This document shows positions 31,685 to 36,270 of a stretch of DNA of 64,000 bases, in pieces (position 1 is the stretch's first letter; each line of letters begins with the position of its first letter). Under the pieces are notes generated by a model. It was not told the origin of the DNA. It did no database searches and saw only the letters and a list, made by a program, of their open reading frames with translations. Made by a program: the position numbers and the translations under genes. This stretch comes from Rubricoccus marinus (lineage in GTDB: Bacteria > Bacteroidota > Rhodothermia > Rhodothermales > Rubricoccaceae): positions 1,489,870-1,553,869 of the forward strand of contig NZ_MQWB01000001.1 of the NCBI RefSeq assembly GCF_002257665.1, written 5' to 3'.

Positions 31685-33028
31685 TCATCGGAGGACCATG
31701 CAGCCGTCCGAGTGGCGGACGAGGAGCGCGGACGTGTCCATGACCTCTTCCGAGGGGTCCACGTAGAGGCGCTGGTCGTCGCCGTCGCGGGCGCGGTCAA
31801 AGCGGACCACGCCGTCTACGAGCGTTTTCTCCACGACGGCGTAGACGGAGAGCGGGTGCGCGGAGAACAGCGCGAGATCGGCGTCCTTGCCGCGCTCGAT
31901 GGAGCCGACGCGGTCGTCGATGCCGAGCTGGTAGGCGGGGTTGATGGTGATCAGCGCGAGGGCTTCGTCGTCTGAGAGGGAGCCGTAGCGCTGCGTCTTG
32001 GCGGCCTCGTGGTAGAGGTGCCTGATCATCCCCGCGTCGTCGCTGTTGATGGACGTGCGGACGCCGTTCTTGGCAAGGATGGCGGCGTTGTAAGCCGAGG
32101 AGTAGTACACCTCGAACTTGTAGCTCCACCAGTCGCTGAACACGCTCGCGCTCGCGCCAGCGGCGGCGAGCTCAGGCGCCACTTTGTATGCCTCGTTGGC
32201 GTGCTGGAACGTGACGCGCTCCACGCCGAAGTCCTGGAGCACGCCGAGGAGCATCAGGATTTCGTCAGAGCGGTAGGAGTGGCTGTGGACCAACACCTCG
32301 CCGCTGAGGATGTCCGCGAGGGTTTCCATGCGCCGGTTGATGGGCGGCAACGGACGGTTCTCGCGGCGGGCGGCCTCTTGCGCGGCGGCGTAAGCGCGCG
32401 CCTCGGTAAAGGCCTCGCGGTACACCTGCTCGATGCCCATGCGCGTGCGCGGACGAATGCCGCGGCCCTGACCGTGGACGCGAGTCGGGTTCTCACCGAG
32501 GGCGAACTTGATGGTGCGCGGTGCGCCCTCGAAGATGAGGCCGTCCGGGTCCAGGGTGCCCCAGCGGAACTTGATAGTCTCGTTCTCACCTCCGACCGGG
32601 TTGGCCGAGCCGTGCATGAGGTGCGCCGACGTGGTCCCACCGGCAAGCGCGCGGTAGATGCCGACGTCGGACGGGTCGAGCGCGTCGCGCATCTGCACCT
32701 CGGCGACGATGACGTTGGAGGCCTCGTTGACGCTGGAGAGCGCGATGTGGCTGTGGGCGTCGATGATGCCCGGCATGAGGTGCATGCCGCTGGCGTCGAT
32801 GGTCTCGACGCCGCGCGGGGCGCTGAGGCCCTGCCCGATGCGGTCGATCTTGCCGTCGCGCACGAGCACGTCGGCGTTCTCCATCGTGCCGTTGGTGACC
32901 GTGTGGACGGTCGCGCCGGTGATGAGGACCGAGCCTCTAGCGTCGGCGGGGGGGAGCGTGGAAGGCGTCTGCGCCGCCAGAGGCGTGGCAAAGGCGACGA
33001 GAGCCGCCAGAAGGGTGGAGCGGATCAT
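31685..33028 (-). CDS. Secreted amidohydrolase with HxH
   Basis: 447 residues. The signal peptide ends ATPLAA-Q. The metal motif is present: MPGIIDAHSHIAL (HxH), with further candidate ligands in VLVHSHSYRSDE and TFQHANEAYK and an Asp in INSDDAGMIRH. The SIERGKDADLALF segment marks the composite domain of imidazolonepropionase/dipeptidase-like amidohydrolases. It is the only one of the three tandem paralogues with an apparently complete site; substrate unknown. The ATG at 33028 overlaps the upstream stop (ATGA). Confidence 0.88.
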   Translation of the reverse strand: MIRSTLLAALVAFATPLAAQTPSTLPPADARGSVLITGATVHTVTNGTMENADVLVRDGKIDRIGQGLSAPRGVETIDASGMHLMPGIIDAHSHIALSSVNEASNVIVAEVQMRDALDPSDVGIYRALAGGTTSAHLMHGSANPVGGENETIKFRWGTLDPDGLIFEGAPRTIKFALGENPTRVHGQGRGIRPRTRMGIEQVYREAFTEARAYAAAQEAARRENRPLPPINRRMETLADILSGEVLVHSHSYRSDEILMLLGVLQDFGVERVTFQHANEAYKVAPELAAAGASASVFSDWWSYKFEVYYSSAYNAAILAKNGVRTSINSDDAGMIRHLYHEAAKTQRYGSLSDDEALALITINPAYQLGIDDRVGSIERGKDADLALFSAHPLSVYAVVEKTLVDGVVRFDRARDGDDQRLYVDPSEEVMDTSALLVRHSDGCMVLR

Positions 33029-34773
33029 TCGGGCTGGCGGGTGGCGGTGATCGGGAAGGCGCCAAAGGAGCCGACGTCGGCGGTGCCCGCGAACTCCAGG
33101 CCGGACACGATGCCGGAGACGGTGATCTCGGGGCCGCTGTTGGGGGCCGTAAAGGAGAACGTGAGCGCGTTGCCGTCGAGCGCGACGGACGAGAGGTTGA
33201 GCGTCTCGCCCTGGGCGCTGAGGGTGCCCTCGAAGCTGCCGGGCGTGCCGGTGAACGTCATCGTGCCGCCCTCGCTGCTGCCGGGGAGCTCGATCTCGTA
33301 CGTCCACGTGCCGACGATCTCGACGACCGCGTCCGGGTCGCCAGAGGCGGCTTTGGGCTTGTTCTCGATCTCGTGGCGCATGCCCTCGACGAACACGAAG
33401 CGCACGTCGGTGGAGTCCGAGAAGTAGTCGCCGGTGGTGACGAGGAGGTTGGCGAGCTTGCCGCGCTCGATGGTGCCGAGCGTGCCGCTGAGCCCCATCA
33501 TCTCGGCCGGAGCCGTCGTGAGCGCGGCGAGCGCGGCCTCTGGCGAGAGCCCGGCCTCCACCATGCGGCGGAGGTTGGCGCGGATGTCCTTGCCCTTGGC
33601 TTCGAACGAGCCGAAGGCGAAGTCCACGTCGCCAGAGGCGAGCAGCGATGGGCTGCGCTCGGCGGCGCCGACGCTTGCGAGGCGCTGCGCGGTCAGCGCG
33701 CCCTTTTCAGCGTCCGTATCGCGGAAGCTGATCGTCCGGCGGTCGGTCACAAAGGACACGCCGCCCGGGTTGGCCGAGGACGGCGGCGGCAGCGCGATGG
33801 TGCGGCTCAGGCTGTCGGTCTTGACCGTATCCGGCAGCGCCAGCGGCGCGATCACCGATAGGCCTCTGGCGCGGATTTTGGCGAGAACGGGGGAGACGTC
33901 CGGCACACCCGCGAGGACGGTGTTCGGGATGCGCATCTCTTCGGTCACGCGGATGGCGCGGTGCGCGTCCAGCCAGCCGTCGGTGTAGAAGACGAGGGCA
34001 CGGTCGCCGTCCAGAACGGGCGCGAGCGCCTCGGCGACGGGGTCGTACATCGGCCGCGTGGCGCCAGAGGCGTCGCGGCGGAAGGCCGTCCGGCTCGCGG
34101 TCTCGCGGCGCGCGTTCTCGACCGTCTCGCGCATCATGCTCAGCACGCCCATCGGGGTGCCGGGGTAGACGCCTCGGGCGGGGTCGATCTGCGCGATCGC
34201 GGTCTCGGTCTGGGGCAGGAACAGCATCTCGGCGGCCTCGCCTCTGGCGACGTTGCGCAAGAGGACGACGGCGCCGGTGCCGGCGAAGAAGCCGTCGCGC
34301 GGCGCAAGGTGCGCGGCGGTGAAGCCGGCCTCGCGGAGCGCTTTGACCTCGGCCTTGGACGCGTCGTAGAGCGTGCGCACGTCGAGGTCAGGCGTCAGGC
34401 CGGCGCGCTCGCGCGGCGGGTTACCGGGGTCGCCCTCGTAGCGCTCGGGGTCTTCGGGCTCGGCGACGCCCGCGTAGGCGAAGGCGTCGACGAAGCCGGC
34501 GTAAACGGTCAGCGAGTCGCCCTCGATGACCTGGGCGTCGAACGGAACGTCGGCGTTTTCGCGGACGGCGACGATGCGGCCGTCGCGGATGACGACCGTC
34601 GCGCGGTCGAGCACGCGCCCGGGAGCGACAACGACGCGGGCGTTGGTGATGGCGTGAGCGGTAGAAACGGGACGCCGGGGCGTGTCACCGTTAGTACCGC
34701 CGCGCAGAACCTGGCCGCTGACCTCGGCGCTCAGCAGGAGCGCCAGAGCCGCGACCGCCAGAGGGCGAATCAT
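33025..34773 (-). CDS. Secreted amidohydrolase-fold protein with extra C-terminal domain
   Basis: 582 residues; signal peptide ending LSAEVSG-Q. It has the amidohydrolase frame (AITNARVVVAPGRVLD, VVIRDGRIVAV, TIERGKLANLLVTTGDYF), but the HxH position reads YAGFVDAFAYAG, so metal ligands are missing. About 110 extra C-terminal residues form a beta domain (GTWTYEIELPG, TMTFTGTPGSFEGTL) like those following other periplasmic members. First gene of the coupled trio, with a TATCTTCG box 23 bases before the ATG. Confidence 0.82.
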   Translation of the reverse strand: MIRPLAVAALALLLSAEVSGQVLRGGTNGDTPRRPVSTAHAITNARVVVAPGRVLDRATVVIRDGRIVAVRENADVPFDAQVIEGDSLTVYAGFVDAFAYAGVAEPEDPERYEGDPGNPPRERAGLTPDLDVRTLYDASKAEVKALREAGFTAAHLAPRDGFFAGTGAVVLLRNVARGEAAEMLFLPQTETAIAQIDPARGVYPGTPMGVLSMMRETVENARRETASRTAFRRDASGATRPMYDPVAEALAPVLDGDRALVFYTDGWLDAHRAIRVTEEMRIPNTVLAGVPDVSPVLAKIRARGLSVIAPLALPDTVKTDSLSRTIALPPPSSANPGGVSFVTDRRTISFRDTDAEKGALTAQRLASVGAAERSPSLLASGDVDFAFGSFEAKGKDIRANLRRMVEAGLSPEAALAALTTAPAEMMGLSGTLGTIERGKLANLLVTTGDYFSDSTDVRFVFVEGMRHEIENKPKAASGDPDAVVEIVGTWTYEIELPGSSEGGTMTFTGTPGSFEGTLSAQGETLNLSSVALDGNALTFSFTAPNSGPEITVSGIVSGLEFAGTADVGSFGAFPITATRQPE

Positions 34774-34948: not shown

Positions 34949-35602
34949 TTAGGCGAACACGCCGTGCTCGCGTGCAAGGCTCGCCGCAGCCGGCGTGACG
35001 ATCTGATCCGGCCGGATCGTGAGCCTCTGGCGGCGGAGCATCGCCTGGCGCACGTCGGTCTCGGTCACCACGCGGCGGGGGACGGTGAGCGGGCGGCTGG
35101 CGCCAGAGGCCGGGGCCTCGCGCGGGGCCTCAATGCCGAGGTCCAAGCCCGCCACCCAGCGCGCGGTCGCGGGCGAGCCTGCGCCAACCCACAGCGTGTG
35201 CTCTACGAACAGCCCCAGCGTGGTCCCGTCCTCTATGGGCAGCGAGAGCGCGATGGGACCGAGCACGAGCGTGCCGGTCTCTCCCAGACCCCACGCGCGG
35301 CGGAGTGCCGAGGGCGCGACGAGTCGCGAGCGGACGGGCGCGACCTCTGGCGCCGCGACGGCGCCGAGCGGGCCGGAGAGCCGGAGGCCTTTGTGATCCG
35401 TTATTGCAATGGCTTTGTCGGTCTCCACACGTGTTTGCGCTCCAACAGACACCGAGACCGTCGCCAGAGGCTCGCCCAGCCGGATGATGTCTACGCGCTC
35501 CGATCCGCGGAGCGATGCGCTGCCGAAAAGCGCCTTCGCGTCCTCTGGCGCGAGGACGGCGCGTGACGCCAGAGGCGTGACCGGGATCGCGTCGGGCCTC
35601 AT
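34949..35602 (-). CDS. Possible PduL-like protein with EutT-N-like tail
   Basis: 217 residues from the ATG at 35602, which overlaps the rpiB stop (ATGA). The pattern IPVTPLASRAVLAPEDAKALFG followed by VGAQTRVETDKAIAITDHKGLRLSGPLG loosely recalls phosphate propanoyltransferases (PduL), but the His pair expected at SRHVHL is absent (ASRAVLA), so catalysis is doubtful. The last 40 residues (VVTETDVRQA... QIVTPAAASLAREHG) resemble the N-terminal module of the RpiB-like neighbour and of EutT. Such modules occur in proteins of bacterial microcompartment loci. No shell genes are visible here. Confidence 0.45.
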   Translation of the reverse strand: MRPDAIPVTPLASRAVLAPEDAKALFGSASLRGSERVDIIRLGEPLATVSVSVGAQTRVETDKAIAITDHKGLRLSGPLGAVAAPEVAPVRSRLVAPSALRRAWGLGETGTLVLGPIALSLPIEDGTTLGLFVEHTLWVGAGSPATARWVAGLDLGIEAPREAPASGASRPLTVPRRVVTETDVRQAMLRRQRLTIRPDQIVTPAAASLAREHGVFA

Positions 35603-36270
35603 TCGTGGCAGCCGCAGTCGTCGCCGGGGAGGAAGCGGGCTTCCACGTCCATCAACTTTTGGACGCGTGCGGCGTGGCGACCGCCCTCGAAGTCCGTCGC
35701 CAAGAACTCCGCGAGGATGCGCTTGCAGGACTCGACGCCCATCGTGCGTGAGCCCAGCGTGATCACGTTCGCGTCGTTGTGCGCACGGGCGTTGAACGCC
35801 GAGAACACGTCCGGGCAGAGCGCGGCACGCACGCCGGGCACCTTGTTGCACACCATCGCGCTGCCCACGCCCACGCCGTCGATCATCAGGCCTCTGGCGA
35901 CGGCGCCGGTCTGCACCAGCCGCGCGACGGCAAAGGCGAAATCCGGGTAGTCCACGCTGTCCGTGCTGGTCGTGCCCACGTCGCGGACGGTCCAGCCCAG
36001 CGATTGGGCATACGCGACGAGCGGCGCTTTCAGATCAAAGCCGCCGTGGTCGCAGCCGACGGCGAGCGTCTTGGGCGGCGGCACGGGGCCGCTGGAGCCA
36101 GAGGCAGCGGGCCGCTCAGCCTCTGGCGAGACGAAGGTGAGTCCGCTGTCCTTTGCGAGGTCGCGCGCGAGAGCGGTGATCAGCGCGTCGTCGGCGACAG
36201 CGAGCGTCGTCGCGCCCGCGTCGAGGGCGTCGCGCACGTGGCGCTCGGAGATAAGGGGGCGTCCGGGCAT
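35599..36270 (-). CDS. RpiB/LacAB-type sugar-phosphate isomerase
   Basis: 223 residues with an extra ~65-residue N-terminus: a module (PLISERHVRDALDAGATT to ITALARDLAKDSGL) joined by a Pro/Ser/Ala linker to a complete RpiB core. Core motifs are AVGCDHGGFDLK, SVDYPDFAFAV, DGVGVGSAMVCNKVPG and ARAHNDANVITLG. RpiB interconverts ribose-5-P and ribulose-5-P; LacAB-like enzymes act on other sugar phosphates. The C-terminus ends DCGCHE. The ATG at 36270 is five bases after a TAGCTTCC box, so initiation may be leaderless. Coupled to the PduL-like gene. Confidence 0.85.
   Translation of the reverse strand: MPGRPLISERHVRDALDAGATTLAVADDALITALARDLAKDSGLTFVSPEAERPAASGSSGPVPPPKTLAVGCDHGGFDLKAPLVAYAQSLGWTVRDVGTTSTDSVDYPDFAFAVARLVQTGAVARGLMIDGVGVGSAMVCNKVPGVRAALCPDVFSAFNARAHNDANVITLGSRTMGVESCKRILAEFLATDFEGGRHAARVQKLMDVEARFLPGDDCGCHE

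Follow-up and report, generated by a model that had tools for sequence, protein, structure and literature searches.

A terminal module shared by an RpiB-like isomerase and a PduL-like pseudoenzyme points to a probable dispersed microcompartment in Rubricoccus marinus

Two overlapping genes of Rubricoccus marinus, encoding an RpiB-like sugar-phosphate isomerase and a PduL-like pseudoenzyme, carry a common segment at opposite ends of their products, and this segment is best explained as a self-contained mini-domain, about 41 residues long, by which bacterial microcompartment components can be recognised. We propose, with a probability of roughly 0.7, that the two proteins belong to a dispersed microcompartment of the FRAG type with sugar-phosphate chemistry, and that the module docks both of them to the shell or core. 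The genes lie in a 64,000-nucleotide stretch of DNA, here called the window, whose relevant features are as follows.

33025 to 34773, minus strand: amidohydrolase-family gene, directly downstream of the pair and not claimed as a microcompartment part
34949 to 35602, minus strand: PduL-like pseudoenzyme, 217 aa, with a PduL fold at about residues 1-150, a low-confidence linker (153-169) and a C-terminal module
34952 to 35074, minus strand: putative docking module at the PduL-like C-terminus (residues 177-217), from profiles and predicted structure
35599 to 35602, minus strand: ATGA, where the RpiB stop codon overlaps the start codon of the PduL-like gene
35599 to 36270, minus strand: RpiB-like sugar-phosphate isomerase, 223 aa, with an N-terminal module, a linker (about 48-67) and an RpiB core (68-210)
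36130 to 36255, minus strand: N-terminal putative docking module of RpiB (residues 6-47), from sequence profiles

The coordinates and quoted segments of both genes that an earlier, sequence-only reading had given are all in place, and the ATGA overlap suggests that translation of the two genes is coupled.

The gene pair shares a terminal module

The sequence-only reading had proposed that a module of about 40 residues is shared by the RpiB N-terminus and the PduL-like C-terminus, and had named profile comparison as the way to learn whether the two segments are unrelated. Its own evidence was thin, since the pair alone lies only in the top 5% of shuffles: a Smith-Waterman alignment of the two single sequences is weak, with a score of 48 that was equalled by 47 of 1000 shuffles. 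Profiles of the two modules built from 10 orthologue pairs bore the proposal out. Aligned with hhalign, module against module, the segments are related (P 96.1%, E 3.6e-9, score 39.7), and none of 200 column shuffles reached this score (maximum 19.4). Full-length profiles selected the same segments unprompted, pairing residues 176-216 of the PduL-like protein with residues 4-45 of RpiB (E 7.7e-6; 0 of 200 shuffles reached the score, maximum 19.0), and in 2 genomes the PduL-like family profile alone also retrieved the N-terminal end of RpiB (E 1.5e-4 and 2.4e-4).

Predicted alone, the module forms a compact strand-helix-strand-helix mini-domain (pLDDT 92.7). A canonical encapsulation peptide is an amphipathic helix of 15-20 residues; the predicted module, with 41 residues, two helices and strands, is not of this kind. 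No structural relative stood out among the PDB matches listed for it (best VIA Z 3.9). The idea that the module arose by internal duplication, and so consists of two similar halves, found no support, the score being reached by 43 of 200 shuffles.

The module recurs in microcompartment proteins

When 16 module sequences were scanned against the 18,950 models of NCBIfam at E up to 1, four models were matched and all four describe microcompartment proteins. TIGR02536 was matched by 14 of the 16 sequences (best E 3.2e-7) and the EutQ model by 6 (best E 8.9e-4), while the two PduM models, TIGR04493 and NF011957, were matched by 5 and 4 sequences, respectively (best 0.0095 and 0.004). The matched regions are the N-terminus of EutQ and the C-termini of TIGR02536 and PduM. 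The module of an additional RpiB, scanned later, also matched a small transporter family (E 0.16).

We also compared the module profile with 68 CDS from three loci: an E. coli eut region, a Cetobacterium eut locus and a compartment locus on a Kosakonia plasmid. These CDS were drawn from 84 listed features by setting aside truncated features, most of the transposases and several small ORFs. Residues 3-42 of E. coli EutQ ranked first (E 5e-7), followed by Kosakonia PduM (0.0085), a Cetobacterium protein annotated as 'ethanolamine utilization protein' (0.026), E. coli EutT (0.18) and a PduQ (0.2). A broader profile gave 2.9e-7 for EutQ, 0.0013 for PduM and 0.096 for EutT, and placed a BMC-T shell protein, probably by chance (0.24), ahead of the Cetobacterium protein (0.25). 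Two Cetobacterium Eut proteins that resemble the module by eye were missed by the module profile. On these profile scores, the kinship of the module with EutQ is firm, that with PduM probable and that with EutT unproven. The resemblance to the EutT N-terminus to which the sequence-only reading had pointed thus fares poorly, EutQ being much the closer protein. We note separately that the C-terminal end of a PduM (LITALAREV..., L174:25505-25984) matches the module. A 2025 study describes PduM as having no known homologues outside Pdu compartments (PMC12108088).

KSB1 bacteria carry the module as well, at the C-terminus of PduL in five loci and at the N-terminus of RpiB in three. Four of the five PduLs keep all seven active-site residues, and directly upstream of the module-bearing PduL, again in 4/5 loci, stands a presumed acylating aldehyde dehydrogenase gene, one of them confirmed by profile. 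One KSB1-like PduL (L100:5566-6339) has lost most of its zinc ligands and kept its C-terminal module, a second case of active-site loss.

By profile alignment, the module shares ancestry with the H1/H2 segment of EutQ. Work in Salmonella reports that this segment (residues 9-21 and 22-41) associates with the shell and H3/H4 (residues 62-99) with cargo peptides, and that deletions separate shell from cargo (PMC12487888). It is mainly because the module aligns to residues 3-42 of EutQ, the H1/H2 region, that we call it a putative shell-docking module.

Shell genes lie elsewhere in the genome and track the module

The sequence-only reading had noted that there are no shell proteins here, and had suggested from this either a remnant or an assembly of the two proteins that needs no shell. 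The absence holds for the 64-kb window. A search of the genome, however, found two tandem BMC-H genes (C1:808301-808831) and three BMC-P genes, two in tandem (C1:3434773-3435323) and one single (C1:679296-679574), that is, shell genes at three places outside the window. Both suggestions lose their support, because they rested on an absence of shell genes that was an artefact of viewing one window; a conserved set lies elsewhere in the genome. The second BMC-H protein (L003:12575-13093) has a C-terminal extension of about 85 residues with a Rho_N/SAP-type helical look by eye; Pfam reported only the BMC domain in it.

Across 114 genomes of the order, BMC-H was found in 49 and BMC-P in 52, mostly as two BMC-H and three BMC-P genes per genome. 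Strong module matches occurred in 45 of the 52 shell-bearing genomes and in 0 of the 62 shell-less ones, counts that come from related genomes, so that p-values drawn from them are not independent. By genus, the module is present in 24/28 shell-bearing and 0/21 shell-less genera, and once the eight genomes that supplied profile sequences and so match by construction are removed, the tally is 37/44 against 0/62. The threshold for a strong match (E 1e-7) was chosen after seeing a gap from 2.7e-8 to 1.3e-4; at E 0.1 the tally is 56/114. Seven shell-bearing genomes gave no strong module match (G013, G015, G043, G049, G090, G094 and G096), and G015, a single contig that is 95% complete, is seemingly a true exception. 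In all 30 genomes with module loci L061-L090 one module ORF is RpiB; 10 genomes of families f1 and f9 have a second module ORF, not RpiB, which corresponds to the PduL-like gene. The suggestion that such modules serve microcompartment targeting is therefore supported by co-occurrence with the shell, by NCBIfam matches confined to microcompartment proteins and by alignment to the shell-binding part of EutQ.

Co-occurrence is equally compatible with the module being an element of core assembly, binding cargo to cargo and condensing RpiB, the PduL-like protein and a dehydrogenase that bears an encapsulation peptide, with the shell recruited by other means. Encapsulation peptides are reported to drive condensation (PMC12339742), and residues 1-23 of Salmonella PduM go to the core and not the shell (PMC12108088), so that shell docking is not the sole way in. 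However, the module aligns to the shell-binding H1/H2 of EutQ and not to the cargo-peptide-binding H3/H4, and it is predicted as a folded mini-domain and not as a single amphipathic helix; we consider core assembly unlikely, although a serious competitor.

Distinctly less probable is a mutual binding of the two modules that would link RpiB and the PduL-like protein without any compartment. The genes do overlap, and both modules are retained in 10/10 genomes that have the gene pair, but no PduL-like partner was found in 35 of the 45 module genomes (it was found in only 10), and shell-less genomes gave no strong module match at all.

The PduL-like protein resembles a pseudoenzyme

No Pfam or NCBIfam model matched the PduL-like protein above threshold, and the Pfam profile for PduL (PF06130, PTAC) found no true PduL in the R. 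marinus genome or in the 114 genomes of the order. When a profile of 8 orthologues was compared with 177,635 PDB sequences, the one match at E up to 10 was the PduL structure 5cuo (E 0.0053). The predicted structure (pLDDT 78.3) has the double-barrel PduL fold, and 5cuo was its only Foldseek match below 0.001 (E 1.5e-4), a result favoured by the presence of true KSB1 PduLs in the alignment behind the model. With VIA, the match to 5cuo has a Z of 10.1 over 144 residues (rmsd 4.7), the next row having a Z of 6.6.

In PduL, the zinc ligands are His48, His50, Glu109, His157, His159 and His204, and Arg103 contacts phosphate (PMC4784909). None of these seven residues is kept in the PduL-like protein and 0-1 in five relatives, whereas four KSB1 PduLs keep 7/7. 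The sequence-only reading had remarked that the expected His pair is lacking, which is true and understated, all seven zinc and phosphate positions being gone; judged by these residues, the PduL-like protein looks catalytically dead. The module is its best-conserved part: within the family, invariant columns make up 13 of 42 in the module and 19 of 175 in the body, and pairwise identity is 0.66 and 0.41, respectively. A first search matched the PduL-like protein in 11 of the 114 genomes, from which G013 was dropped (E 8.3e-4, four internal stops), leaving 10; by profile search, the gene is thus present in 10 of the 12 genomes of families f1 and f9.

Neighbourhoods of the pair and the shell genes

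A gene for dihydrolipoamide dehydrogenase (LPD) adjoins the single BMC-P gene in 12/12 genomes of families f1 and f9 (R. marinus included; one copy is cut by a contig end). For other families, which comprise 40 shell-bearing genomes, LPD and amidohydrolase neighbourhoods were sampled at 10 RpiB loci and 9 BMC-P loci, and genes in raw loci were called by a home-made codon score. There, LPD stands beside BMC-P in none of the 9 sampled genomes, and lies within about 1.1 kb of the module-bearing RpiB in 9 of 10 loci (one cut by a contig end). It is possible that LPD (L008:7683-9575; L103-L111; L152-L162) is an unrecognised component of the compartment.

In 4 of 5 relatives, the RpiB/PduL-like pair also has a homologue of the amidohydrolase gene next to it. 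Such a homologue neighbours the single BMC-P gene in 5 of the 9 sampled genomes of other families and in 0 of 11 of f1 and f9. Because the homologue stands beside BMC-P in those five genomes, we take the amidohydrolase to mark shared ancestral surroundings. The simplest account would be a single ancestral cluster of BMC-P, LPD, amidohydrolase and RpiB, the last with or without PduL, that was broken differently in the two groups, an account by which the window's pair is tied to a shell gene independently of the module. Across several families (L155, L157, L158, L160, L163 and L170), an AAA ATPase gene also stands beside the single BMC-P gene, and in most of these loci a small Phd-like ORF lies alongside the ATPase gene.

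The LPD neighbourhoods, 12/12 beside BMC-P and 9/10 near RpiB, would suit a module that is an E3-binding-like domain recruiting LPD, and Pfam E3_binding was matched by 8 of the 16 module sequences (best 6.2e-4). However, the Pfam match spans 14 of 36 positions among the matches listed, and the scores of the PduL-like protein (11.2 bits) and of its module (15.5 bits) fall short of the E3_binding (PF02817) cut-off of 23.7 bits. The predicted module also has strands, and no E3-binding domain is among the structural matches listed, which is no proof. A permuted E3-binding domain was also considered: a search of 177,635 PDB sequences gave as its best match an E2 subunit-binding domain whose halves come in swapped order (E 0.027). 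Neither EutQ nor PduM is known to be linked to LPD, and we regard LPD recruitment as very improbable. Least credible is an evolutionary remnant of a lost microcompartment, to which the loss of all zinc ligands and the distance of the pair from the shell genes might point, since shell genes persist as an intact, conserved set (two BMC-H genes and, for the most part, three BMC-P genes in each genome) and the module is the best-conserved part of the PduL-like protein.

As a separate observation on the window, the octamer CTCTGGCG (extended GCCTCTGGCGC) occurs in 263 copies in its 64 kb, against about 5 expected from base composition. At three further sites in the genome its density is 82-97 copies per 20 kb, and it is absent from 6.3 kb of a same-genus genome; we take it to be a genome-specific HIP1-like repeat.

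An altered active-site loop in the module-bearing RpiB

The RpiB core, preceded by about 67 extra residues, matches PF02502 at residues 70-206 with 169.1 bits (cut-off 24.7) and TIGR01120 with 144.8 bits (138.65). The catalytic base of RpiB is a cysteine. In place of the ICGTGxG motif, with its canonical CGTGxG loop, this RpiB reads IDGVGVGS; CGTG is present in all four solved RpiBs aligned, and module-bearing RpiBs read [IL]DG[VA]GxGS. Aspartate was found in the motif of the module-bearing RpiB in 30 of 31 genomes examined, the remaining one (G017) being unmatched by the search pattern. The loop aspartate could serve as the base or change the substrate.

A proposed microcompartment

Two further enzymes encoded in the genome bear on our proposal of a dispersed compartment with sugar-phosphate chemistry. 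One is an acetylating acetaldehyde dehydrogenase that shares 49% identity with the KSB1 enzyme encoded beside PduL (TIGR02518, 552 bits; cut-off 620), whose C-terminal tail resembles the tails of the KSB1 enzymes and was called encapsulation-peptide-like by eye. The other is DeoC (279.6 bits; cut-off 117.3), which has a 62-residue N-terminal extension.

The shell (2 BMC-H, 3 BMC-P), the acetylating aldehyde dehydrogenase with its encapsulation-peptide-like tail and the N-extended DeoC are all encoded elsewhere on the chromosome. DeoC would split deoxyribose 5-phosphate, the dehydrogenase would convert the resulting acetaldehyde to acetyl-CoA, and RpiB would feed or rearrange the sugar phosphate. 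Through the module, RpiB would be held at the inner face of the shell, and so would the PduL body, which looks catalytically dead; the PduL-like protein would then act as a structural adaptor rather than as a phosphotransacylase. Homology of the modules, the presence of shell genes, the co-occurrence of module and shell and the loss of the PduL active site are observed here, whereas docking to the shell, encapsulation, the pathway and the role as adaptor are what we infer.

Discussion

A wider reading of these results, put forward tentatively and at somewhat less than even odds, is that the segment is an undescribed shell-docking domain used across microcompartments: at the N-terminus of EutQ, at the C-termini of PduM, TIGR02536 and KSB1 PduL, and at the N-terminus of the RpiBs of dispersed compartments. 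The PduL of Rubricoccaceae and similar bacteria would have turned into a pure docking adaptor, and LPD and the RpiB with the changed loop would be hidden parts of the same organelle. No description of the shared module was found in the literature searched, most subscription papers lying outside its reach, so that newness is unproven.

If this wider reading is true, the module is a sequence handle by which cargo of dispersed compartments can be found anywhere in a genome. FRAG compartments have been called enigmatic because few enzymes adjoin their shell genes (PMC8217296), and a terminal module whose presence follows that of the shell from genome to genome offers a way to find their contents, here RpiB and the PduL pseudoenzyme. 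The module also links PduM to the shell-binding part of EutQ, which suggests a role for the PduM body, and in a PduL that keeps the module and loses its active site, the structural role of a cargo protein is seen apart from its catalytic one.

Several known systems can be compared with the one proposed here. In the Eut compartment, the N-terminal H1/H2 segment of EutQ corresponds in sequence to the module, is likewise terminal, with a linker after it, and was shown to bind the shell; EutQ, however, continues with H3/H4 and a cupin domain, whereas the fusion partners of the module here are RpiB and a PduL pseudoenzyme and docking is putative (PMC12487888). The PduL phosphotransacylase 5cuo and the PduL-like protein have their fold in common, but the latter is without any metal ligand and carries the module at its C-terminus (PMC4784909).

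At the level of whole compartments, the SPU (sugar phosphate utilization) set of DeoC, RpiB and an acetaldehyde-type dehydrogenase is also found in this genome; SPU loci are described as clustered, mostly with PduL, whereas here DeoC and RpiB are encoded away from the shell genes, the genes are dispersed and no PF06130 protein was found in the 114 genomes (PMC4207490, PMC8217296). The FRAG microcompartments of Sutter et al. (2021), in whose main text words beginning 'Rhodotherm-' are absent, have shell genes at several places, three BMC-P genes and a dehydrogenase away from the shell (PMC8217296). R. marinus has the same arrangement, with 2 BMC-H and 3 BMC-P genes dispersed over three places. 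For the FRAG types that paper names no signature enzyme (PMC8217296), whereas here RpiB, DeoC and the PduL pseudoenzyme are tied to the compartment by co-occurrence or presence.
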